This document shows, piece after piece, positions 2,857 to 27,685 of a DNA stretch of 28,209 nucleotides; within the stretch, counting starts at the first letter, position 1, and each line of letters begins with the position of its first letter. A program made the position numbers and the translations under genes. The DNA is from a virus. The notes under the pieces were generated by a model. That model searched no databases and was not told the origin of the DNA. It was given only the letters and a program-made list of their open reading frames with translations. The stretch covers positions 1 to 28,209 of the IMG/VR virus record IMGVR_UViG_3300021963_006013. The stretch is one strand, 5' to 3'.

Positions 2857-3119
2857 AATTCTTTGACATTACCAACGAGAGTGATTTTCTAAAAATTAGA
2901 GAACTTGCTCCTACAATGGCTCCAGCCACTCCTGGTGCTCCGCCTCCGGGTGCAGCACCCGCTGGTAGTGCTCCGCCTCCTGATCCACAGATGCAACAGA
3001 AGATGATGGCTCAACAGGCACTAGATCGTGCCAATCAAAAGAAACAATTGCAAGATCAGATTAAGTCAAAACAAGAAGAACTTGCAGAATTACAAAAACA
3101 ATTGGCAGCTATAAAATGA
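2853..3119 (+). CDS. Small Pro/Ala-rich coiled-coil phage protein
   Basis: This 88-residue protein starts with MKFFDIT, continues through a Pro/Ala/Gly linker (about 20-47), and ends in a charged coiled coil (about 48-88, KKQLQDQIKSKQEELAELQK). It overlaps both neighbours by ATGA, so three genes (1207, 2853, 3116) are translationally coupled. The MKFFDI/MRFFEF start is shared with the next protein. The function is unknown; a structural or adaptor role is likely from context. Confidence 0.7.
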   Translation: MKFFDITNESDFLKIRELAPTMAPATPGAPPPGAAPAGSAPPPDPQMQQKMMAQQALDRANQKKQLQDQIKSKQEELAELQKQLAAIK

Positions 3120-3502
3120 GATTTTTTGAATTTAGTGGTGATGACGAAGGCGATAGATTTGTTATGGTTCTTAGAAACTATATTGGTCGTGCCGCAAGTA
3201 AGAAAGCACCTGCTAAATTAAATTGGAACGGACTTAATAAAGTACTGGCCACAAATGGTTTTGAGTTAACAGCAGACTACGAAACATTTAAGGCCATGTA
3301 CGATTCAATTCCAACTATCCAACAAATGGTCAAGAACTTCAATGCCGACGGTGTTGAACTTAATGTTCCCGGCGCACCAGACGAAGAACCTAAAGGCGAC
3401 GGAACCCAAACACCTGCAGATAGTCAAGCAGCAGTAGACCAAACAGCAGCATCGGCAGCAGCCGGACAATTGGCACAATCACAAGCAACTCCCCAGGCTT
3501 GA
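3116..3502 (+). CDS. Small phage protein with Ala/Gln-rich tail, 128 aa
   Basis: The protein begins MRFFEFS, like its upstream neighbour, has a folded helical part (about 15-85) and a low-complexity Ala/Gln/Asp/Pro tail (about 88-128). It is coupled to 2853 by an ATGA overlap. I do not recognise the family. The tail plus context suggests a virion-associated protein. The sigma70-like promoter for the next gene starts inside its last codons. Confidence 0.65.
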   Translation: MRFFEFSGDDEGDRFVMVLRNYIGRAASKKAPAKLNWNGLNKVLATNGFELTADYETFKAMYDSIPTIQQMVKNFNADGVELNVPGAPDEEPKGDGTQTPADSQAAVDQTAASAAAGQLAQSQATPQA

Positions 3503-3527
3503 CAAACTAATTTTTTTACTGTAATAT
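3499..3527 (+). promoter_or_regulatory. Sigma70-like promoter TTGACA-17-TAATAT
   Basis: A perfect -35 hexamer (3499-3504), a 17-bp spacer and TAATAT (3522-3527) are present. The expected start of transcription is near 3534, one base before the ATG at 3535. There is no Shine-Dalgarno sequence in front of that ATG, so the message is probably leaderless. Confidence 0.8.
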
Positions 3528-3534
3528 ATACAGT

Positions 3535-4257
3535 ATGAATATTACACCTCCACCGTTCGTTGAACGAATCCAATATAAAAATTGTGTCCAAATTAACGAC
3601 CCAATTACACGTAAACGTGTTTACAAAACTCCCGACGGAGAAAGCCTACCCTCTGTGACCACTATCCTTTCAGCAACAAAGGATATGACTCACTTGAATG
3701 AATGGAAGAAGCGCATCGGCGAAGATAAAGCTAGACAAATCACAACAGAAGCCGCAGGTGTAGGTACAGCCATGCATGCCAATCTAGAACGCTTTCTAAT
3801 TGGTGAACAACGACAGCCAGGCAACAACCCTGTTCACGTACAGGCCAATAAGATGGCTGACGTTATTATTGAAAACGGACTTAGCAAAATGGATGAAGTA
3901 TGGGCTATGGAACAGAGCCTATACTTTCCAGGATTGTATTCTGGTACAACTGACCTAGTGGGTGTATATCAAGGACAGCCTGCTATCTGCGATCACAAGC
4001 AGACCAACAAGCCTAAAAAAACAGAATGGGTAGAAGATTACTATCTACAATTAACAGCGTATATATTAGCACATAATGAAGTCTACGGAACGGACATGAA
4101 ACGAGGTGTTATTTTTATGTGTTCAAGAGACCTACAATATCAACAATTTGATCTAACTCCCGATAACTTTAACAAGTATCAGGACATGTGGTTAAACAAG
4201 GTTGAAGAGTACTATACAACGGGTCTACAAGGATACAAGCAACTGCTTACCCAATAA
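3535..4257 (+). CDS. PD-(D/E)XK (RecB/Cas4/MGME1-like) nuclease
   Basis: This is a 240-residue metal-dependent nuclease of the PD-(D/E)XK fold. The core motifs appear in order: an N-terminal VTTIL element (about 41-46), GTAMHANLERFL with the conserved His (about 77-88), SGTTDLVG giving the first Asp (about 138-145), AICDHKQT giving the D-x-K pair (about 151-157), and YYLQLTAY, the QxxxY motif (about 169-176) of RecB/Cas4 relatives. The overall pattern resembles mitochondrial MGME1. Such phage enzymes degrade or process DNA ends in replication or recombination. Its own strong promoter and likely leaderless start suggest early expression apart from the surrounding virion genes. Confidence 0.85.
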   Translation: MNITPPPFVERIQYKNCVQINDPITRKRVYKTPDGESLPSVTTILSATKDMTHLNEWKKRIGEDKARQITTEAAGVGTAMHANLERFLIGEQRQPGNNPVHVQANKMADVIIENGLSKMDEVWAMEQSLYFPGLYSGTTDLVGVYQGQPAICDHKQTNKPKKTEWVEDYYLQLTAYILAHNEVYGTDMKRGVIFMCSRDLQYQQFDLTPDNFNKYQDMWLNKVEEYYTTGLQGYKQLLTQ

Positions 4258-6319: not shown

Positions 6320-8653
6320 ATGGAAATTACAGTAATTAAAAGAAGCGGCCAACGAGAGCCTCTAACAATTGAAAAATGGCAGGCACAAGTTGCCAAAGTC
6401 TGTCAAGGCATAGCTGACGTTAGTCAGTCAATGATTGAAATTAAAGCACAACCACATTTTTACGATGGAATTACTACTCGAGAAGTTGACGAGATTACTC
6501 TACGTGCTATTGTAGATCTAATTGACGTAGAACAAAATCCCGACGTAGGTCATACCAACTATCAATATGTTGCTGGTAAACAACGTGTGAGCATGTTGCG
6601 TAAAGATGTCTATGGTAGTTATATTCCACCATCTCTATACAGCATTGTAAAGAAAAATGTTGAAGTAGGATTATATACTCCTGAACTATTGCAATGGTAC
6701 TCAGAAGATGACTGGAACAAGATGAATGACATGTTGGATCATGAAAAGGATGAAACATATTCATATGCAGCCATTGAGCAGTTAATTGAAAAATATTTGG
6801 TACGCAATCGTGCGACAAAGGAAATTTATGAAACACCTCAGATCCGATATATGGTTGCAGCGGCCACTGTTATGCATAAAGAAGAACCTAATGCAGCTAG
6901 GATGCGCTACATCAAAGAGTATTATAATGCTGCTAGTGATGGCCTATTCACTCTCGCTACTCCTGTTCTTGCTGGCCTCGGAACTCCTACTAAACAATTT
7001 AGTAGTTGCGTCCTTATTCGTAGTGATGATGATTTGGATAGTATTTTTGCAAGTGGCGAGATGATGGCCAAGTATGCCAGCAAACGTGCAGGTATTGGTT
7101 TGGAGATTGGACGCTTACGTCCATTAGGATCTCCCATCAGAGGTGGGGAGATCATGCATACAGGTATGATACCATTCCTAAAAAAATGGTTCGGCGACTT
7201 AAGAAGTTGTTCACAAGGAGGTATCCGCAATGCAAGTGCTACTGTATTCTATCCTATTTGGCATCATCAGTTTGATGATCTTATTGTACTTAAGAACAAC
7301 CAAGGAACAGAAGAAACCCGAGTCCGTCATATGGATTATGGGGTTGTGCTTAGTGCTTTCTTCTGGAGACGATTTAAAAACAAAGAAGACATAACATTCT
7401 TTGATCCCAATGAAGTTCCTGACTTGTATGAGGCTTTCTACAAGAATACAGAACTGTTTGAAGAATTGTATGTTAAGTATGAGAAGCGCAAGGACCTTCG
7501 CAAGAAGACCATGAGCGCCGAAGAAGTGTTCAAGAGTGGTATACTAAAAGAACGCACAGACACGGGTCGAATATATCTCGTGTTCATTGATAATGTAATG
7601 AATCAAGGTCCTTTTGATCCTGAATACCATACGATTTATCAAAGTAACTTGTGCTGTGAGATCCTATTACCCACACGTTCATTTAAGCGATTAGACGACG
7701 ATAGTGGACGCATAGCGTTATGTACACTGGGATCTATCAACTGGGGGTCGTTCCGTAATCCAGAGGATATGCGTAGAGCCTGTAGGATTCTACAACGTAG
7801 CCTGTGTAACATTCTTGACTATCAAGACTTCTTGTCGATACAAAGTAAACTGTCTAACGACGAGATCCAGCCATTGGGTATTGGGGTTACAAATCTTGCC
7901 TACTGGCATGCCAAGCGTGGACTCAAGTACGGTGAGAAAGATGCACTACAAGATGTTAAGAGCTGGATGGAACACCAAGCCTATTACTTAACAGAAGCCA
8001 CAGTCGAATTGGCCAAAGAAAGAGGTGCTTGTCAGCATAGCTCACATACCCGATACGGTCAAGGCGTATTCCCCTGGGAACTACGTGCTAAGGGAGTTAA
8101 TGAATTAGCAGACTTTGCTCCTGAACTAGATTGGGAAACTCTACGTACCAACATGAAACAGTATGGTGTTCGTAATGCAACCTTAATGGCCATTGCTCCT
8201 GTTGAGTCTAGTTCAGTTGTAATTAACTCAACTAATGGAATTGAAATGCCCATGAGTCTTATTTCAGTAAAAGAAAGCAAGGCGGGATCATTTACACAAG
8301 TTGTTCCTGAATATCACAAGTTAAAAAACAAATATCAAATGATGTGGGAACAGAAAGATTGTGATGGCTACATTAAGACCGCAGCAGTACTAGCAGCCTA
8401 TGTAGATCAGAGTATCTCAACCAACACGTTCTATAATCCAGCACACTTTGCAGATCGTAAAGTGCCAACCACATTGATTGCCAAGAACTTGATGCAAGCA
8501 CATGTATGGGGTTTAAAAACTTTCTACTATAGTTTGATTAATAAGCAAGGTAGTAAGGCAGTTGCCGAGCCCACTCCGGAAGTGCATTATAACGGATTCC
8601 ACAACGAAAGAGAAGTTATCGAAGACGACGACTGCGAGGCATGTAAACTATAA
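6320..8653 (+). CDS. nrdA: Ribonucleoside-diphosphate reductase class Ia, alpha subunit
   Basis: This 777-residue NrdA reduces ribonucleoside diphosphates to deoxy forms together with NrdB. An N-terminal ATP-cone (VIKRSGQREPLTIEKW, about 4-90) is present, so allosteric activity control is probably kept. Catalytic elements match E. coli NrdA: SSCVLI (Cys225 equivalent), SNLCCEI (Asn437/Cys439/Glu441 equivalents with the thiyl Cys), ALCTLGS (Cys462 equivalent), KTFYYS (radical-transfer Tyr pair) and a C-terminal CEACKL redox Cys pair. Length is normal. The stop overlaps the aldolase start by TAATG. Codon use looks like its neighbours, so it is resident phage sequence. Confidence 0.97.
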   Translation: MEITVIKRSGQREPLTIEKWQAQVAKVCQGIADVSQSMIEIKAQPHFYDGITTREVDEITLRAIVDLIDVEQNPDVGHTNYQYVAGKQRVSMLRKDVYGSYIPPSLYSIVKKNVEVGLYTPELLQWYSEDDWNKMNDMLDHEKDETYSYAAIEQLIEKYLVRNRATKEIYETPQIRYMVAAATVMHKEEPNAARMRYIKEYYNAASDGLFTLATPVLAGLGTPTKQFSSCVLIRSDDDLDSIFASGEMMAKYASKRAGIGLEIGRLRPLGSPIRGGEIMHTGMIPFLKKWFGDLRSCSQGGIRNASATVFYPIWHHQFDDLIVLKNNQGTEETRVRHMDYGVVLSAFFWRRFKNKEDITFFDPNEVPDLYEAFYKNTELFEELYVKYEKRKDLRKKTMSAEEVFKSGILKERTDTGRIYLVFIDNVMNQGPFDPEYHTIYQSNLCCEILLPTRSFKRLDDDSGRIALCTLGSINWGSFRNPEDMRRACRILQRSLCNILDYQDFLSIQSKLSNDEIQPLGIGVTNLAYWHAKRGLKYGEKDALQDVKSWMEHQAYYLTEATVELAKERGACQHSSHTRYGQGVFPWELRAKGVNELADFAPELDWETLRTNMKQYGVRNATLMAIAPVESSSVVINSTNGIEMPMSLISVKESKAGSFTQVVPEYHKLKNKYQMMWEQKDCDGYIKTAAVLAAYVDQSISTNTFYNPAHFADRKVPTTLIAKNLMQAHVWGLKTFYYSLINKQGSKAVAEPTPEVHYNGFHNEREVIEDDDCEACKL

Positions 8654-9321
8654 TGCTAGAAACAATATGTGATATTATGGTAGACGCTTACAAGCGTAAC
8701 TGGATTACCAGTCGTGATGGCAATGTAAGCATACGTCATCACGATCGTGATCACTTTTACATTACACCAAGTGGTGTACGTAAACAAACTCTACAACCTG
8801 ATCAGTTTAAAAAAATTATAATTAAACCTCCTCATTCGTGGAATGAACCCGGAACAGGATTACTAGCCGAACGCTGGGGGTGGAAAGAAGATACCTATAC
8901 TGATATTAGTGCTAACCTAAAGCCTAGTGGAGAAATTCCTTTACACTTTGGTTTGCAAAAACAAATGGGTCAACATGCTAGTGAAGTTCGTGTTGTTGTA
9001 CATGTTCATCCTACTTACTGCATTGCCGCAATGCATGCCGGCATCGATCTTAGTACCGTTAGTGCAGCGTTCCCAGAACTTAATCGTTATACTCGAGTAG
9101 CACCCAATGTAGGAGATGTTCCTCCTATTAGCCAAGAACTTGCAGATCAATGCCATAAAAATTTGGAATTAGATCAAAATGGAAATATCGCCTATGACAT
9201 TGTGGGAATTAAAGGACACGGGGTAGTTGCTATTGATACAAGTCCGTGGCGTGCCTATGAGCATATTGAACGATTAGAACATATTTGCAAGATAGTACTT
9301 GCATCAGGAAATTATAAATGA
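8653..9321 (+). CDS. Class II aldolase/adducin family protein inside the nrd operon
   Basis: This 222-residue protein carries the full class II aldolase set: GNVS (24-26), TPSG (38-41), the acid/base Glu in KPSGEIPLH (E94), zinc-binding His in HVHP (H117, H119) and the third ligand in GHG (H189). The family includes fuculose- and ribulose-phosphate aldolases or epimerases and methylthioribulose-phosphate dehydratase; substrate cannot be read from sequence. Tight coupling (TAATG with nrdA, ATGA with nrdB) places it in the reductase operon. All metal ligands are intact, so activity is likely. A role in sugar-phosphate turnover linked to nucleotide supply is inference. Confidence 0.9.
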   Translation: MLETICDIMVDAYKRNWITSRDGNVSIRHHDRDHFYITPSGVRKQTLQPDQFKKIIIKPPHSWNEPGTGLLAERWGWKEDTYTDISANLKPSGEIPLHFGLQKQMGQHASEVRVVVHVHPTYCIAAMHAGIDLSTVSAAFPELNRYTRVAPNVGDVPPISQELADQCHKNLELDQNGNIAYDIVGIKGHGVVAIDTSPWRAYEHIERLEHICKIVLASGNYK

Positions 9322-10418
9322 GCAAACAACAATACAACCTAAACACAAAGACAGACTACCTAAATCGTAAGATGTTTTTAGACCCAGCAGGTCCTGTAAC
9401 TATTCAACGCTTTGAAGAAGTAAAATATAAAAAAATTGCAGACTATGATGCAACAGCACGTGGCTTCTTTTGGCAACCAGAAGAAATCAGTCTTTCAAAA
9501 GATTCAAACGATTTTAAAGACGCCAGTGATGCAGTTAAACATATCTTTACTAGCAACCTGCTGCGCCAAACTGCTCTTGACAGTCTACAAGGTCGTGGTC
9601 CAACACAGGTATTCACGCCTGTGTGCAGCCTGCCAGAAGTTGAAGCATTAATGTATAACTGGGGCTTCTTTGAAACCAACATTCACAGCAAGAGCTACAG
9701 TCATATCATTCGCAATATCTACAATGTGCCAAAAGATGTATTCAATACTATCCACGACACTAAAGAAATTGTCGACATGGCGTCAAGTGTGGGCAAGTAC
9801 TATGACCTACTGCATAGAATCAATTGCAGAAAAGAACTAGGTGAAGCAGTAGACGAATACGAACATGTCAAAGCAATTTGGATGGCATTACATGCTAGCT
9901 ATGCTTTGGAAGCATTCCGCTTTATGGTATCATTTGCTACCAGCTTGGCAATGGTTGAGAACAAGATCTTTATTGGCAACGGCAACATCATTAGCCTAAT
10001 TCTACAAGATGAACTGTTGCACAAAGGGTGGACAGCCTACTTGATCAATCAGGTAATCAAGGAAGATGCTAGATTTGTCAAAGCCAAGCAAGAATGTGAA
10101 GCAGAAGTCTATGCATTGTATATGGACGTTATTCGTGAAGAGAAAGAGTGGGCTACCTATTTGTTTAAACTAGGTCCAGTGATCGGTTTGAATGCTAATA
10201 TTCTACGTGATTTTGTAGATTATACTGCTGTCGGAGCATTAAAAGATATTGGTATCAAATATAATAACCCTGCGCCAAAAACAACACCAATTCCTTGGTT
10301 TAACAAACACAGTGATACTAGCAAAAAGCAGACAGCTCTACAGGAATCAGAATCAACAAATTACGTTATCGGAGTCATGGGAGAAAATATTGACTACGAC
10401 GAATTGCCGGCTATATAA
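9318..10418 (+). CDS. nrdB: Ribonucleoside-diphosphate reductase class Ia, beta subunit
   Basis: This 366-residue NrdB makes the tyrosyl radical used by NrdA. Di-iron ligands are recognisable: D88 (LDSLQGR), E119, H123, the Glu in EAFRFMVSF, and E/H in QDELLH. The radical tyrosine is Y127 (IHSKSYSH). One oddity: the first helix reads E-TNI-H (ExxxH) where E. coli has E-TI-H (ExxH), a one-residue insertion between two iron ligands. The acidic C-terminus (YDELPAI) is where NrdB docks on NrdA. The start ATG overlaps the aldolase stop. Confidence 0.96.
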   Translation: MSKQQYNLNTKTDYLNRKMFLDPAGPVTIQRFEEVKYKKIADYDATARGFFWQPEEISLSKDSNDFKDASDAVKHIFTSNLLRQTALDSLQGRGPTQVFTPVCSLPEVEALMYNWGFFETNIHSKSYSHIIRNIYNVPKDVFNTIHDTKEIVDMASSVGKYYDLLHRINCRKELGEAVDEYEHVKAIWMALHASYALEAFRFMVSFATSLAMVENKIFIGNGNIISLILQDELLHKGWTAYLINQVIKEDARFVKAKQECEAEVYALYMDVIREEKEWATYLFKLGPVIGLNANILRDFVDYTAVGALKDIGIKYNNPAPKTTPIPWFNKHSDTSKKQTALQESESTNYVIGVMGENIDYDELPAI

Positions 10419-10439
10419 TAGATATTAAAAGGAAGCACA

Positions 10440-10697
10440 ATGAACGCGGTAGTATGGAGCAAATATCATTGCCCTTATTGTGATCAAGCAAAAGCATTGC
10501 TGACACAAAAGGGTATTAAATTTGAAGAAAAGAAAATCGGTGATGGATACACCCGAGAAGAATTGTTAGAAGCAGTACCAACGGCTAGAACAGTTCCACA
10601 AATTTTTCTAGATGGAAAATTAATTGGCGGATTTACAGAATTGAAAAAGCTACTCGAACAGTGGGATGGACAGGGATATGGAGATGGTGAACTTTAA
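10440..10697 (+). CDS. Glutaredoxin
   Basis: This is an 85-residue glutaredoxin with the dithiol site CPYC (residues 11-14), the cis-Pro motif TVPQIF (about 56-61) and the GGF turn (about 67-69) that binds glutathione. In phages such proteins reduce ribonucleotide reductase, and the position directly after nrdB fits that role. An AAAGGAAG ribosome binding site precedes ATG 10440. The stop overlaps the next start (TAATG). Length and motifs are typical of the short bacterial GrxC type. Confidence 0.93.
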   Translation: MNAVVWSKYHCPYCDQAKALLTQKGIKFEEKKIGDGYTREELLEAVPTARTVPQIFLDGKLIGGFTELKKLLEQWDGQGYGDGEL

Positions 10698-12427: not shown

Positions 12428-13074
12428 CAAACACATTTAAAGTAACTCCATTATTTGGCACACCACTGTATCAAACTAATTTAGGAACTCTAGACAAATC
12501 CATGAGAGAGTTTATTGAAAATTTAGAATACGAACGTATGCCAGCAGATAATGGAGATTACTCTGTTAACAAATACATTTTAAATACTCCAGAGCTAGCG
12601 CCATTAAAAGCCAAGATCATGAAGGCTGCAGACAATTTCATATACACAGTATTAGATGTAAAGCGCAATATGAATTTTCAAATGGAAAATAGTTGGGTCA
12701 ATAGACACTACACCGGAGACTATTCAGGCCAACACTATCACGGAAACAGTCTAATTAGCGGTGTTTACTATATCGATACCGACGGTGATACTGGTGCATT
12801 TATCTGCCACAAAGACAAGGGACAATATAATCTTTGGACGGAAACAGTTAGAGTAGACTTTAACTATCAAGATCATGCAGACGACGCCAAGTTAAATTTC
12901 TTTAACGCCGATGCTTGGGGAATATTTCCTGCAAAGAATGATTTGATTATGTTCCCTTCGTTAATGACACACTCCGTTGAAGAAAACGAATCAGCAAAAG
13001 TTCGATACAGTCTAGCCTTTAATCTGTTTCCAAGAGGCACAGCAGGTGGACCGATCAACACACTAACGGTATAA
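12424..13074 (+). CDS. 2OG-Fe(II) oxygenase family protein
   Basis: This 216-residue protein starts at ATG 12424, overlapping the DUF454 stop. It has the pattern of the TIGR02466-type oxygenases common in marine phages: an N-terminal FGTPLYQ strand, WVNRHYTGDYSGQHYHGNS with metal-binding His, SGVYYID, then NDLIMFPSLMTHSVEEN with the distal His, and VRYSLAFNLFP with the Arg expected to bind 2-oxoglutarate. Such enzymes hydroxylate proteins, nucleic acids or small molecules; the substrate here is unknown. Late-gene copies in T4-like phages often modify virion proteins, which is only an analogy. Confidence 0.88.
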   Translation: MTNTFKVTPLFGTPLYQTNLGTLDKSMREFIENLEYERMPADNGDYSVNKYILNTPELAPLKAKIMKAADNFIYTVLDVKRNMNFQMENSWVNRHYTGDYSGQHYHGNSLISGVYYIDTDGDTGAFICHKDKGQYNLWTETVRVDFNYQDHADDAKLNFFNADAWGIFPAKNDLIMFPSLMTHSVEENESAKVRYSLAFNLFPRGTAGGPINTLTV

Positions 13075-14733: not shown

Positions 14734-14742
14734 CCAATACAA

Positions 14743-14770
14743 AATAGGCTCTTTGGGGCCTATTTTTTTT
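14743..14770 (+). terminator. Rho-independent terminator
   Basis: A 9-bp stem (AATAGGCTC with GGGCCTATT, one G-U pair) with a TTTG loop runs into eight Ts. It ends the DUF4214 transcript. Confidence 0.9.
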
Positions 14771-14794
14771 GACTGGAGCATGTATCACTATAAG
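14769..14794 (+). promoter_or_regulatory. Possible promoter ending 8 bases before the hydrolase ATG
   Basis: TATAAG (14789-14794) could be a -10 element; TTGACT (14769-14774) overlaps the end of the terminator U-tract, but the spacer is only 14 bp. No Shine-Dalgarno sequence precedes ATG 14803, so a near-leaderless message is possible. Weaker than the other promoters here. Confidence 0.35.
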
Positions 14795-14802
14795 TAGTGT
14801 AC

Positions 14803-15558
14803 ATGAAAAAATTAACAGTCGGCGGATGCAGAATTCCGGTAAGTTTGGATATACAAGCGAACCTAAAAGAAATTAAAAAAGCCATTGATTGGGCAGCTGA
14901 TAATTCTGTGGACATAATGTCTGTTCCAGAATGTGCTCTCAGTGGTTATATGTGGTCACCTGAATCTCAAACAGATCCTAGAATAATTGAATTAGATTTA
15001 GCATTACAATCGGTCATGTTGTATTCTAAAGAAAAATTAGTGGATCTAGTATTAGGCACAGCTTGGTATGATCGCGATGGTGTTTGGAAAAATATGCAGT
15101 TGTTTATTGTCGACGGTAAATGCCAACATGTACATCGAAAAAGTGTTTTATTTGGTACAGAAATGCAGTACTATCAAGGCGGTGGTGATTCAAGTGTGTT
15201 TGACTATAAAGGTTTTAAAATTGCAGGATTAATATGCAACGACATTTGGTCAAATACAATGTTTTGGCCCAGCGCATCAGCAATGTTATTGCAAACTTTA
15301 ATGCGTGAAAGAACCGATATAGTTTTTGTTAGTGCTAATGTGCCTCGAGATGCTAGCCATGCGGAATTATTTTACCAATGGCATGACTCTTGTATAAGAA
15401 TGTTTGGAGGCACAGGAAATTGGAATACTGTTGTTTCTGAAATAAGTCATACAAATCCAACTCCGATTTGTCCAGTTGGCATAGTTGGCCGAAATGCAAT
15501 GTGGAGTGTCAAAGGACATGATACTGAAACTTGTTATTTCAAAGAGACTGTTAATTGA
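14803..15558 (+). CDS. Carbon-nitrogen hydrolase (nitrilase superfamily)
   Basis: This 251-residue protein has the complete nitrilase Glu-Lys-Cys triad: E43 (SVPECALSGY), K113 (HVHRKSVLF) and C145 (AGLICNDIW). The family hydrolyses amides or nitriles, or makes amides such as in NAD synthesis and carbamoylputrescine breakdown; substrate cannot be assigned. I use ATG 14803 rather than GTG 14797 because it is closest to family length. Neither has a ribosome binding site. It stands alone between a terminator and the peroxiredoxin promoter. Confidence 0.85.
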   Translation: MKKLTVGGCRIPVSLDIQANLKEIKKAIDWAADNSVDIMSVPECALSGYMWSPESQTDPRIIELDLALQSVMLYSKEKLVDLVLGTAWYDRDGVWKNMQLFIVDGKCQHVHRKSVLFGTEMQYYQGGGDSSVFDYKGFKIAGLICNDIWSNTMFWPSASAMLLQTLMRERTDIVFVSANVPRDASHAELFYQWHDSCIRMFGGTGNWNTVVSEISHTNPTPICPVGIVGRNAMWSVKGHDTETCYFKETVN

Positions 15559-15684: not shown

Positions 15685-16224
15685 ATGAAAACAGTCGGCG
15701 ATAAATTAGCCCCATTTGCTATTACAGGTGTTAAGCCAGGACAACCAGAAGATGCCTTTTTTGACATTACAGAAAAGTCATTTGAAGGTAAGTGGAAAGT
15801 AATTGTTTACTACCCAAAGGACTTCACATTTGTATGTCCTACAGAGATTGTGGCCTACGATAAATTAGCCAGCGACTTTGCTGATCGTGATGCAGTATTG
15901 CTCACAGGTTCAACAGACAATGAGTTCTGCAAAGTGTCATGGCAAAAAGCACACAGCGATCTACAAAAGATTACACACAATCAGTTTGCTGACACACAGC
16001 GTGGTGAATTGAGCTTGATCGAACAGTTGGGCGTATTCTATGCTCCAGCAGGTGCGGCACTTCGTGCAACATTCATTGTCGACCCAGACAACGTTATTCA
16101 GCACGTTACTGTCAACAACTTGAATGTTGGTCGTTCACCAGAAGAAACTCTGCGTGTACTCGACGCATTGCAAACTGGCGAGCTATGTGCTTGCAACCGT
16201 ACAGTTGGCGGTGAAACACTGTAA
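15685..16224 (+). CDS. Peroxiredoxin (AhpC/Prx family)
   Basis: This 179-residue typical peroxiredoxin reduces H2O2 and alkyl hydroperoxides. The peroxidatic Cys is C51 in FTFVCPTE; near the C-terminus GELCACN gives candidate resolving Cys C168 and C170. LRATFIVDPDNVIQHV is the usual family strand. A perfect AAGGAG site precedes the ATG. The stop overlaps the next start (TAATG), and an AhpD-like gene follows, making a peroxidase plus reductant pair. It has its own promoter with a protective hairpin, which suggests strong expression. Confidence 0.93.
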   Translation: MKTVGDKLAPFAITGVKPGQPEDAFFDITEKSFEGKWKVIVYYPKDFTFVCPTEIVAYDKLASDFADRDAVLLTGSTDNEFCKVSWQKAHSDLQKITHNQFADTQRGELSLIEQLGVFYAPAGAALRATFIVDPDNVIQHVTVNNLNVGRSPEETLRVLDALQTGELCACNRTVGGETL

Positions 16225-20751: not shown

Positions 20752-21109
20752 TCCCGTACAGGCCAACAACATTACTAATCCTAGATTTTTTGAATATAGG
20801 AGCGGTACATTTATTAATGAACTGGTACAACTGTCTTTTGGTTGGTTCAAGACCTTAGATGACGAGCAAAGAGATTCTTATACTCAATCTCTGCAACATG
20901 CCGTTATGTTTGCTGAAAACGGTCAAGCAGTAGAATGGTACAAGCGTGATGCTAGTGGAGTTGCGGTGCCAGTAATGACCTGGCCGACAGGTTCCGGGTA
21001 TTGCCGACGTATGCATATCCAGGCAATAGCCTATGGGGTGCAAAAAACGCTAAGTAAGACTGCCTGCTTTTCAAATGCTAGCAGTAATTGGCAATGGATA
21101 CGGGAATAA
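20714..21109 (+). CDS. Exported protein resembling surface-antigen C-terminal domain, 131 aa
   Basis: I choose ATG 20714 because it yields a clean signal peptide (VVGKLLILVAISPVQA, cleavage after VQA); longer frames would add unlikely upstream sequence. It overlaps the lipoprotein gene by 38 bases. The mature part (WFKTLDDEQRDSYTQSLQHA, then GYCRRMHIQAIAYG and ACFSNASSNWQWI) follows the C-terminal pattern of 17-kDa/RT0821-like surface proteins, with a probable disulfide. Likely periplasmic or outer-membrane located. Moderate confidence in start and family. Confidence 0.65.
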   Translation: MVVGKLLILVAISPVQANNITNPRFFEYRSGTFINELVQLSFGWFKTLDDEQRDSYTQSLQHAVMFAENGQAVEWYKRDASGVAVPVMTWPTGSGYCRRMHIQAIAYGVQKTLSKTACFSNASSNWQWIRE

Positions 21110-21112
21110 ATA
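21105..21112 (+). promoter_or_regulatory. T4-late-like promoter box AATAAATA
   Basis: AATAAATA contains the stop codon of the upstream gene (TAA 21107-21109) and precedes the ATG at 21120 by only 7 bases, so any transcript start would fall in or near the start codon. It may be fortuitous. Confidence 0.3.
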
Positions 21113-23121: not shown

Positions 23122-23150
23122 TTGACCATTGGTCAGAAAGGTAGTATAAT
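23122..23150 (+). promoter_or_regulatory. Sigma70-like promoter TTGACC-17-TATAAT with dyad
   Basis: Spacer is 17 bp. The expected start is about 23157, the A of the ATG itself, and no Shine-Dalgarno sequence exists, so the message should be leaderless. The dyad TGACC-ATT-GGTCA (23123-23135) overlaps the -35 and could be an operator. Confidence 0.85.
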
Positions 23151-23156
23151 AGCTGT

Positions 23157-23738
23157 ATGAACACAGATATTATGATAGACTTGGAGACACTAGATGTCCT
23201 CCCTTCCGCAACTATTCTAACTATTGGCGCAGTTAAGTTTAATCCATTTGGTGAGGAAGCTAACGATCCAAAAATGGAAAAATTCTATGTCAAAGTAGAT
23301 GTAGATAGTTGCGATAGAATAGGTGCAACAGTTTCCACTGCCACATTAGATTGGTGGGCGAATCAAACAGCCGCTGCTCAAGCAGATGCCTTTGATCCTA
23401 CCAATCGTATTTCAATTGAAGATGCTATGACACAGCTCTACAAGTTCTGCTGGGGAGGCAAACGTGTTTGGTCGCATGGCGCAGGCTTTGACGTTATTAT
23501 TCTAGAATGGTATTTCCGTAAAATTGGTAAAGCTATTCCTTGGAGTTTCTGGGAAGTTCGTGACACTCGCACATTGTTTGACATTGGTATTAACCCCAAC
23601 CGTGCTTCGATTACAGCTCACAATGCTCTAGCAGATGCTGTAGACCAAGCACAAGGTGTTCAAAAGATCTATAGAACACTACGTAGCTCAACAATGAGCG
23701 ACGGACAGTATATTAACCCTTTGGCAAAAACAAATTAA
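23157..23738 (+). CDS. DEDDh 3'-5' exonuclease (Rv2179c/DexA-like)
   Basis: This 193-residue exonuclease shows Exo I in MIDLETLD (D8, E10), the family strand ATILTIGAVKFNP, Exo II in WSHGAGFDVIILEW, and Exo III in AHNALADAVDQA (DEDDh His and Asp). The overall order fits the Rv2179c-like 3'-5' exoribonuclease domain and T4 DexA. It could degrade DNA or RNA 3' ends. Its own promoter with a likely leaderless start parallels the nuclease at 3535. The MazG-like gene follows after one base. Confidence 0.9.
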   Translation: MNTDIMIDLETLDVLPSATILTIGAVKFNPFGEEANDPKMEKFYVKVDVDSCDRIGATVSTATLDWWANQTAAAQADAFDPTNRISIEDAMTQLYKFCWGGKRVWSHGAGFDVIILEWYFRKIGKAIPWSFWEVRDTRTLFDIGINPNRASITAHNALADAVDQAQGVQKIYRTLRSSTMSDGQYINPLAKTN

Positions 23739-24110: not shown

Positions 24111-26012
24111 ATGTCAAAGATCATCGGTATCGACTTAGGTACCACAAACTCATGCGTAGCCGTTATTGAAAACGGTATCCCCAAAGTTATTGAAAATTCA
24201 GAAGGTGCCAGAACAACACCCTCAATCGTTGCCTACGGCAAAGATGAAATTTTAGTAGGCGCCAGCGCAAAGCGCCAATCAGTAACTAACCCAAAAAATA
24301 CCATCTATGCATCAAAGCGTTTGATCGGTAGAAAATTTAAAGAGGAAGCTGTCCAAAAAGACATCAACCTAATGCCTTACGAAATTATGGAAGCCAAGAA
24401 CGGAGATGCTTGGGTTCGTGTAAACGATCAAGAACTTGCTCCTCCACAGATCTCAGCTGAAGTTCTTCGTAAGATGAAAAAGACCGCGGAGGATTATCTT
24501 GGTACAACAGTTACTCAAGCAGTTATTACAGTCCCTGCGTACTTTAACGACAGCCAGCGACAGGCTACAAAGGACGCTGGTAAAATCGCAGGCTTGGAGG
24601 TACTCCGTATTATTAACGAGCCTACTGCGGCAGCTCTTGCTTATGGTGTTGATAAAGCTGATAAAAAAGATAGGAAAATTGCTGTTTACGATCTTGGTGG
24701 CGGTACATTCGATGTTTCAATCATCGAGATAGCCAACGTCGACGGCGACAAACAAATTGAAGTATTGTCAACCAATGGCGACACGTTCCTAGGTGGTGAA
24801 GACTTCGACCAGCGTATCATGGACTTCTTGGTTGAAGAATTCAAGAAAGATCAAGGCGTAGACCTAACCAAGGATGTTTTGGCACTCCAGCGTCTAAAAG
24901 AAAGTGCAGAGAAAGCCAAGATCGAATTATCAAGTTCAGCACAAACATCAGTTAACCTGCCATACATTACAGCAGATGCAAGTGGCCCTAAGCACATGAA
25001 CATTACTATCAGTCGTTCTAAGTTAGAACAACTAGTAGATGAATTAATCCAACGTTCAGTGGGACCATGCAAGACAGCAATGTCAGATGCAGGTGTAAGT
25101 ACAAGCGACATCGACGAAGTTATTCTTGTTGGTGGTATGACACGTATGCCTAAGGTACAGGAAACTGTAGAAAAGTTGTTTGGTAAGGCACCACGTAAGG
25201 ATGTTAACCCAGACGAAGCAGTTGCCGCAGGTGCTGCTGTTCAAGGTGCAGTTCTAGGCGGCGATCGTAATGACGTTCTATTGTTAGACGTAACACCATT
25301 GAGCCTAGGTATCGAAACTATGGGAGGTGTGTTTGCCAAGGTTATTCAAAAGAACACAACTATTCCTACTAAAGGACAACAGGTGTTCTCAACAGCAGAA
25401 GACAACCAGCCTGCCGTGACCATCAAGGTCTTCCAGGGAGAGCGTGAGCTTGTACAACACAATAAGCTGTTAGGTGAATTTAATCTAGAAGGTATTGCTC
25501 CGGCTCGTCGAGGCCAACCGCAGATCGAAGTTGCATTTGACATCGATGCCAACGGTATCATGCATATCAGTGCTAAAGACAAAGGCACAGGCAAAGAGAA
25601 CAAGATCACTATCAAATCAGACAGTGGTTTAAGTAAAGATGAAATTGAACGTATGGTTCGTGAAGCCGAAGAAAATGCTGAGAGTGATAAACAAGCTCGC
25701 ACACTTATCGATACTCGCAATCAAGCAGAAGCCACTGTACATGAAATTAAAAAAGATCTTGAAGAATTCAAAGACGAATTAACTGATACAGAAAAAACAG
25801 AAATCGAGACAGCAGTAAAATCAGTCGAAGACGCTATGAAAGAAGACGACGCTGATAAAATTAAAGCTGAACTTGAAAAAGTTTTTCCTGCAATGAAAAC
25901 ATTGTTGGAGAAAAAGCAGGCTAAGGAACAGGCAGCTAATGCGCCTCAACCCGAAGCCAAAGCAGAAGACAATGTAGTAGACGCTACCTTTACGGAGACA
26001 AAGTCTAACTAA
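24111..26012 (+). CDS. dnaK: Full-length Hsp70 chaperone DnaK
   Basis: This 633-residue protein is close to the length of E. coli DnaK (638). The nucleotide-binding domain has [58 protein letters not shown] and [11 protein letters not shown]. The linker reads [15 protein letters not shown], the peptide-binding domain follows ([13 protein letters not shown]), and the helical lid ends in an acidic tail ([10 protein letters not shown]). All ATPase motifs are intact, so it should work with host DnaJ and GrpE, which are not in this window. Likely role: folding of virion or replication proteins. Codon use resembles the neighbours, so it is not a recent host pick-up. Confidence 0.97.
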
Positions 26013-26019
26013 TTGTCAA

Positions 26020-26038
26020 GGGGTACCTACGGGGCCCC
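26020..26038 (+). terminator. Hairpin between dnaK and hsp20
   Basis: GGGGTACC and GGGGCCCC pair around TAC with one mismatch and one G-U pair. The following T-run is weak, so it may be a partial terminator or a processing/stability hairpin. Confidence 0.45.
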
Positions 26039-26045
26039 AGTTTGT

Positions 26046-26063
26046 TCTTACTTTATAAGGAGA
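26046..26063 (+). repeat. Second copy of the 18-base chaperone leader element
   Basis: TCTTACTTTATAAGGAGA is identical to 24087-24104 in front of dnaK and lies directly before ATG 26069. Confidence 0.85.
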
Positions 26064-26068
26064 CTATT

Positions 26069-26515
26069 ATGAACAACAACGCATTACAAAGAATCGAAGC
26101 TATTAATAGAGCACTAATTGGTTTTGACACCATGTTCGACCAAATGGAGCGCCGCTATAGCAATAGCATTAATAACAACTATCCCCCACACAACATTATC
26201 AAGACTGGTGAGAATCAGTATGAGATTCAAATTGCTGTGACAGGATTTGAGAAATCAGAAATTTCTGTATCTGTAGAATCTAATGTTCTTACAGTCAAAG
26301 GCGAAGGACAAGAATCTATTCGTCACGAGAATCCAGAAATTGTATACTTACACAGAGGCCTTGCTACTCGAGACTTTGCTCGTGAGTTCCCACTTGCAGA
26401 ACACATCGAAGTAAGCGGTGCAGAGATCAAGAATGGTATGCTGATCGTTAAATTGATCCGCAATGTTCCTGAATCTGAAAAGCCACGTGTAATTGATATC
26501 GTGGAAGTTAAATAA
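26069..26515 (+). CDS. Small heat shock protein Hsp20 (alpha-crystallin type)
   Basis: I start at ATG 26069 behind TAAGGAGA rather than the in-frame TTG 26042. The 148-residue protein has an N-terminal region similar to IbpA (RIEAINRALIGFDTMFDQME), a core alpha-crystallin domain (YPPHNIIKTGENQYEIQIAV, LTVKGEG, FAREFPLAEHIEV, IKNGMLIVKL) and a short tail. It holds unfolding proteins for DnaK, which precedes it. T4-like cyanophages carry similar Hsp20 genes. A hairpin ends the message. Confidence 0.95.
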   Translation: MNNNALQRIEAINRALIGFDTMFDQMERRYSNSINNNYPPHNIIKTGENQYEIQIAVTGFEKSEISVSVESNVLTVKGEGQESIRHENPEIVYLHRGLATRDFAREFPLAEHIEVSGAEIKNGMLIVKLIRNVPESEKPRVIDIVEVK

Positions 26516-26519
26516 ATTA

Positions 26520-26541
26520 TTAGGGGGAGTAATCCCCCTAA
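26520..26541 (+). terminator. Strong GNRA-capped hairpin after hsp20
   Basis: TTAGGGGGA, GTAA, TCCCCCTAA makes a perfect 9-bp stem with a GNRA loop. No U-run follows, so it may be a 3' stabiliser or attenuator between hsp20 and clpS rather than a full terminator. Confidence 0.6.
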
Positions 26542-26557
26542 TTGTCGGAGAAAGATT

Positions 26558-26860
26558 ATGACTACAGAAATTAAAATGGATGAAAAAGTTGCAGTGAGTG
26601 TTCAGCCTCCTAAATTATGGAAAGTTGTTTTCCTTAATGATGATTCAACTCCAATGGAGTTTGTTATTGAATTACTCACGGGCGTATTCAAACATAGTGA
26701 AAGCCGTGCTAAAGATATTACTTTAGAAATTCATAATACTGGTAGTGCTGTAGCAGGAGTTTATACTCACGAGATTGCCGAAACTAAGGGCATCGAATCG
26801 ACCCACCTAGCACGTAATAATGGGTTTCCATTACAAATTACTCTTGAACAAGAGCAATGA
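26558..26860 (+). CDS. clpS: ClpS, adaptor of the ClpAP protease
   Basis: This 100-residue protein has the ClpS pattern throughout: PKLWKVVFLNDDSTPMEFVI, LLTGVFKHSESRA, EIHNTGSAVAGVYTHEIAET and LARNNGFPLQITLEQE. The NDD-x-TPMEFV loop and the pocket that holds N-end-rule residues are present. In bacteria ClpS delivers N-degron proteins to ClpA and inhibits ClpAP from degrading SsrA-tagged ones. No ClpA is encoded here, so it must act on the host protease. GTCGGAGAAAG precedes the ATG. The stop overlaps the next gene by ATGA. Confidence 0.95.
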   Translation: MTTEIKMDEKVAVSVQPPKLWKVVFLNDDSTPMEFVIELLTGVFKHSESRAKDITLEIHNTGSAVAGVYTHEIAETKGIESTHLARNNGFPLQITLEQEQ

Positions 26861-27133: not shown

Positions 27134-27685
27134 ATGAGCCTAAAAGACCTAACCAAAGACAATCACACAAATGCAGAAAGACAAGAATTTGTAAAAATTC
27201 TATTTTCTGGAAATATAGATCCCAAGCTGTACGCTACCTATCTATATAATCAATTCCCTATGTATGAACTATTAGAAGTCTGTGCCATGCCACACGGTCT
27301 GCTTTCAGATATTCCTGGAATACTTCGAGCAAAAGCAATTAGAACAGACTTCGACGAATTATGGGGCAATGATGAAGACGATCGACCAAAACTCTGTGCA
27401 GTTGTTAAAGAGTACATGGATCATATTATGAAAATTAAAGATGATCCAAAACGTCTAATGGCACATATCTATGTTCGTCATATGGGAGATTTGGCCGGTG
27501 GCCAGATGATTGCCAAGAAAGTTCCTGGTAGCGGAAAATATTATCAATTTGAAAATTCTGATGCACTGAAAGCCGCAGTTCGTTTAAAGATTGACGACAG
27601 TATGGCAGACGAAGCCAAGATCTGTTTTGACTTTGCTACTAAATTCTTTAAAGAGATGATGGAAATTGCAAACAGCTCAAAGTAA
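27134..27685 (+). CDS. Heme oxygenase
   Basis: This 183-residue protein opens rings of heme to biliverdin IXalpha, CO and iron. The proximal His is in KDNHTNAERQEF; the distal helix reads YVRHMGDLAGGQMIAKK, the heme oxygenase signature (GDLxGGQ). It is short, as in cyanophage Ho1 proteins. The bilin reductase gene overlaps its 3' end by 20 bases, so product and user are coupled. No Shine-Dalgarno sequence is clear; coupling to the upstream gene is likely. Confidence 0.93.
   Translation: MSLKDLTKDNHTNAERQEFVKILFSGNIDPKLYATYLYNQFPMYELLEVCAMPHGLLSDIPGILRAKAIRTDFDELWGNDEDDRPKLCAVVKEYMDHIMKIKDDPKRLMAHIYVRHMGDLAGGQMIAKKVPGSGKYYQFENSDALKAAVRLKIDDSMADEAKICFDFATKFFKEMMEIANSSK

Follow-up and report, generated by a model that had tools for sequence, protein, structure and literature searches.

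The window, a 28,209-nt stretch of viral DNA, encodes a PD-(D/E)XK nuclease of 240 amino acids close behind a co-directional gene of 128 amino acids. Profile searches assigned the nuclease to the PHROG 298 exonucleases (E = 5.8e-55), and Pfam PDDEXK_1 also passed. Its ATG at 3535 is the first ATG, GTG or TTG in the frame and the sole possible start. As in leaderless messages, no Shine-Dalgarno (SD) site precedes it: the SD pairing energy of +0.9 kcal/mol ranks among the poorest in the window's table of 42 starts (of which the coordinates 12011, 20701 and 26072 are not start codons), and an SD site is present at most of the others. Genes occupying the place of the upstream gene are annotated as virion structural in RaK2, GAP32 and Hallingskeid. 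The features of the locus are:

3116..3502, plus strand: upstream co-directional gene, 128 aa (ORF list; neighbourhood comparison with relatives)
3499..3504, plus strand: -35 box TTGACA, within which the upstream gene ends with its stop TGA at 3500-3502 (sequence, relatives)
3508..3544, plus strand: predicted hairpin of the read-through RNA, with core arms 3517-3523 and 3529-3535 and outer pairs reaching codons 1-4 (folding; core covariation in relatives)
3522..3527, plus strand: -10 box TAATAT, ending 7 nt 5' of the start codon (sequence, relatives)
3534..3535, plus strand: expected transcription start, at the A of the start codon or one base earlier (from spacing)
3535..4257, plus strand: PD-(D/E)XK nuclease (PHROG 298 exonuclease), 240 aa, without SD site (profile searches, SD pairing energy)

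The sequence-only reading had proposed that TTGACA and TAATAT, separated by 17 nt and ending 7 nt before the ATG, drive a leaderless nuclease message. The layout was confirmed, including the lack of an SD site. Taken by itself, the promoter match (10 of 12 positions) is weak because such sites are common by chance, 42 being found in 14 kb with 36.6 expected; what convinces is conservation. A search for related nuclease loci gave 80 viral loci, of which L005 was left out since its start lies at a contig edge. The remaining 79 relatives and the window represent 54 distinct start regions, in which promoters were searched with every gap from 0 to 22 nt between the -10 box and the ATG permitted. 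A sigma70-like promoter with the -10 box ending 5-10 nt before the ATG was present in all 54, with a gap of 7 nt in 38, 9 in eight, 5 in three, 6 in two, 8 in two and 10 in one. The spacer measured 17 nt in 52 of the 54; some relatives have poor -35 boxes (TTGCTA, TTGTAT, TAGACG). Judged from this spacing, the nuclease mRNA would start at or next to its AUG and be translated as a leaderless message.

The zero-leader form of the nuclease appears confined to an uncultured clade when compared with six cultured relatives. Five of these (XaC1, GAP32, RaK2, Munch and Hallingskeid) have a GGAG-type SD and a longer gap, and the sixth, Atu_ph07, has another layout. RaK2, GAP32, Munch and Hallingskeid share with the clade a homologous nuclease (46-48% identity), the same neighbourhood and a TATAAT-like element just upstream, but their nuclease starts differ in the GGAG-type SD, the longer distance from the -10 box to the ATG and the lack of any hairpin of note. 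Upstream of the exonuclease in L084, L085, L086 and L087, the GGAG-type SD follows the TATAAT-like element directly, at about the expected point of transcription start, and might therefore be complete in read-through RNA only.

A second gene of the same design and a possible late one lie further downstream in the window:

21105..21112, plus strand: T4-type late motif AATAAATA, 7 nt before ATG 21120, possibly a late leaderless gene (motif search)
23122..23150, plus strand: second promoter, TTGACC-17-TATAAT, ending 6 nt before ATG 23157 (sequence, relatives)
23145..23174, plus strand: predicted hairpin at the second gene, with the start codon in the loop and the 5' arm covering the -10 box (folding)
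23157..23738, plus strand: Rv2179c-like exonuclease, 193 aa, the window's second predicted leaderless gene (profile search, relatives)

For this gene 80 related loci were collected, 78 of them with an ATG start; L108 and L117, which have none, were dropped. The promoter design seen at 23157 recurs in 42 of 51 distinct start regions, and the other nine are laid out differently. On the minus strand of L224, the product of a start at 12813 of the reverse complement opens with MAKHLMID, as the second exonuclease does, and a 12-bp perfect inverted repeat (z = -7.9) surrounds the start codon and the -10 box.

Promoter spacing was then examined in four large relatives (G001, 353 kb; G002, 355 kb; G003, 280 kb, covered to base 280000 of 280019; G004, 208 kb), contigs that are possibly fragments and whose gene starts are mechanical ORF starts. 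When 518 sigma70-like sites were scored regardless of gap, they peaked 5-6 nt before an ORF start (41 of 518), and only 19 had gaps of 7-17 nt. The T4-type late motif NATAAATA behaved similarly: among 229 copies, 44 ended 4-5 nt and 56 ended 3-9 nt before an ATG, and two control motifs showed no such peak. Within 50-kb stretches, gaps of 3-9 nt numbered 0/33 in T4, 0/12 in RaK2 and 0/13 in GAP32. Across ten clade contigs, ATAAATA-N4-5-ATG occurred 91 times versus 9 for the reversed motif, compared with 17 versus 24 in seven outgroup phage records. Of the leaderless starts, 2 of 56 late and 4 of 49 sigma70-type ones had an SD pairing energy of -5 kcal/mol or lower; for their leadered counterparts the counts were 35 of 81 and 94 of 146, respectively. 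The set of leaderless-like sigma70 sites comprises 54 that were picked by gap, so that their gaps carry no weight as evidence. Taken together, the spacing peaks and the conservation at the locus lend good support to the earlier proposal that the nuclease initiates without a leader.

Protein families were scanned for 19 of the 56 late leaderless and 10 of the 54 sigma70 leaderless-like proteins and for one late-type gene with a gap of 6, long proteins being favoured. The late-type set included tail tube, head-tail adaptor, tail fibre and virion proteins, several others having no PHROG match; the sigma70-type set included DNA primase, a DnaB-like helicase and QueE. In the clade, structural genes such as those for the tail tube, the head-tail adaptor and virion proteins are preceded by a late motif of T4 type resembling TATAAATA. 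As these late genes share the zero-leader spacing, the design is not peculiar to early genes, and this weakens the suggestion of the sequence-only reading that the purpose of leaderless initiation is to evade host control in early infection. The clade-wide pattern and the complementarity around the start, described below, go beyond what that reading had claimed.

Initiation factor IF3 has been reported to disfavour leaderless messages (PMC9031893, PMC2268962). It is annotated in RaK2 (L229, 38350-38859) and GAP32 (L230, 44744-45250), both leadered, and IF3 domains were found in none of four contigs of the leaderless clade, which may be incomplete. This difference between leadered and leaderless phages is suggestive only.

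The sequence just upstream of the nuclease start is complementary to that around it. When positions -36 to +24 were folded at the 54 nuclease starts, the z values averaged -2.6, and 33 of them were below -2. The hairpin of the window itself is modest (z of -1.84, -2.49 or -2.66 across three foldings), and in its read-through RNA the AUG is 43% unpaired. In a swap test, the parts before and after the ATG were exchanged among phages in 20000 permutations and the folding energies compared. No permutation reached the observed energy, either over all 54 nuclease starts or over the 28 of TATAAT type, and the same result (0/20000) was obtained for the 42 leaderless starts of the second gene. For the 22 starts of TAATAT type, to which the window belongs, the test was negative (2832 and 17425 of 20000), which would be the outcome if neither core arm extended beyond the ATG. 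Covariation in the core was nevertheless seen in 12 distinct TAATAT-type rows, with 5 double-change cells versus 1.9 after shuffling (0 of 500 shuffles as high; kinship not corrected), and a TATAAT-type sub-alignment of seven rows gave 6 versus 2.6 (0 of 500; kinship likewise not corrected); the related sequences in all these comparisons are not independent. Openness of the AUG in read-through RNA averaged 0.33 at nuclease starts versus 0.44 at 300 background starts, a moderate difference (p = 0.006). In leaderless RNA it was 0.85, partly because the AUG lies at the RNA end. Neither folding of the two strands nor the counts of G-T versus A-C pairs (29 versus 17) told pairing in RNA from a DNA element; the start codon alone contributes many of the T-G pairs. 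Elsewhere, few leaderless genes show a notable hairpin, z falling below -2 at 8 of 54 compared with 19 of 300 background starts.

Three other explanations were weighed. The start might simply be leaderless, with the complementarity idle in read-through RNA as a product of AT-rich sequence and promoter constraint. The modest hairpin of the window, the negative swap test in its TAATAT type and the missing hairpin at most leaderless genes fit this explanation, but the covariation and swap tests are positive in TATAAT-type starts, the swap test is positive also at the second gene, and the core covaries in the window's own type, so that we regard it as possible but rather unlikely. It is less probable still, and in our view doubtful, that a repressor switches the promoter off by binding the inverted repeat over the -10 box as its DNA operator, the start being leaderless regardless. 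A strict core, TGTAATATATACA, symmetric about the -10 box, is found in 17 of 18 gap-7 starts of TAATAT type, and the strand comparisons do not separate RNA from DNA; however, arm sequences vary widely and the best symmetry axis shifts from phage to phage, unlike a shared operator, and this shift speaks for pairing and against one fixed operator site. It is highly improbable that re-initiation or coupling on upstream transcripts accounts for expression of the nuclease and that the promoter-like sequence is incidental: the upstream stop is indeed close by (median 32 nt, range 3-51, over the 54 starts) and chance promoter-like sites are common, but the start has no SD, the -35 box, spacer and gap are strictly conserved, and the start tends to be hidden in read-through RNA.

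A LexA-like operator, CTGT-N7-ACAG, was also considered at the nuclease start and rejected. The consensus of the SOS box is CTGT-N8-ACAG, from which the spacing is one off, and the outer position is C in nine and G in nine of the 18 gap-7 starts of the window's type.

We therefore favour, with some reserve, a leaderless nuclease mRNA transcribed from a sigma70 promoter, as one case of a clade-wide design, with the read-through RNA hidden by pairing. Host sigma70 RNA polymerase would start at the A of ATG 3535 or one base before, and ribosomes would load on the 5'-terminal AUG without an SD. The stretch just upstream, comprising spacer and -10 box, would pair with the stretch around the start, so that in transcripts reading through from the upstream gene the AUG would be buried in a fold. 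The leaderless transcript, lacking the 5' arm, would stay open, and expression of the nuclease would consequently depend on its own promoter rather than on the operon transcript.

This arrangement resembles that of the T4 genes e, soc, 49 and I-TevI, in which the start is masked on long transcripts made early and released by a late promoter close by (PMC3014915, PMC2988022). In both, a long transcript would fold over the start, and a promoter inside the 5' arm would yield an RNA without that arm. At the nuclease, the core 5' arm (3517-3523) lies upstream of the expected start of the internal promoter (3534-3535), and predicted structure over the initiation region of the long transcript only is strong in many relatives and modest in the window. 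Unlike the T4 genes, the nuclease has no SD to hide and its predicted RNA begins at the AUG; furthermore, its internal promoter is of sigma70 type (TTGACA-17-TAATAT), whereas the T4 cases, according to PMC2988022, are all late genes. With neither a sequestered SD nor a late internal promoter, the nuclease may be said to work like the T4 switches without being a member of the set. From the promoter type, its timing would be reversed relative to T4, early on and late off. As in leaderless mRNAs such as that of lambda cI, discussed in PMC9031893, the start codon is predicted at or next to the 5' end and an SD is lacking; unlike that type, a whole set of early and late genes appears leaderless, with a fixed spacing from promoter to ATG. 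In phage AR9, leaders range from 26 to 491 nt, and the authors remark (PMC5312081) that phage transcripts are often leaderless.

On a broader scale, sigma70 and T4-type late promoters of the clade would often be placed so that the start codon is the first base of the message. We lean, by a small measure, towards the reading that a clade of large T4-like freshwater phages moved many early and late messages to leaderless initiation by fixing the spacing between promoter and ATG, and that genes close behind another can carry a hairpin silencing read-through RNA, promoter choice alone deciding translation. In the open-access literature searched, no report of leaderless genes shared across a clade of T4-like phages was found. 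If the reading is true, these phages would provide a natural large-scale test bed for leaderless translation in phages of probable Proteobacteria, gene starts in such genomes would be better called by promoter spacing than by SD sites, and the hairpin would illustrate how one embedded promoter governs both transcription and translation of a gene.

The source of the window is a lake-water giant phage within this clade of large T4-like freshwater phages. Compared with bacteria, the phage DnaK came closest to proteins mostly from Burkholderiales (Limnohabitans, Polaromonas, Rhodoferax, Polynucleobacter), at approximately 70-74% identity; the host is probably among the Proteobacteria, and DnaK gives a hint of Burkholderiales. 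Elsewhere in the window, a terminator-like hairpin and a strongly folded start region precede a nitrilase-like gene (14741-14803). Host-like metabolic and chaperone genes, judged by the look of their translations, lie at 6320-10697, 15685-16224, 24111-26860 and 27134-27685; those recognized by eye encode ribonucleotide reductase, glutaredoxin, peroxiredoxin, DnaK, Hsp20, ClpS and heme oxygenase, of which DnaK alone was compared with bacteria.
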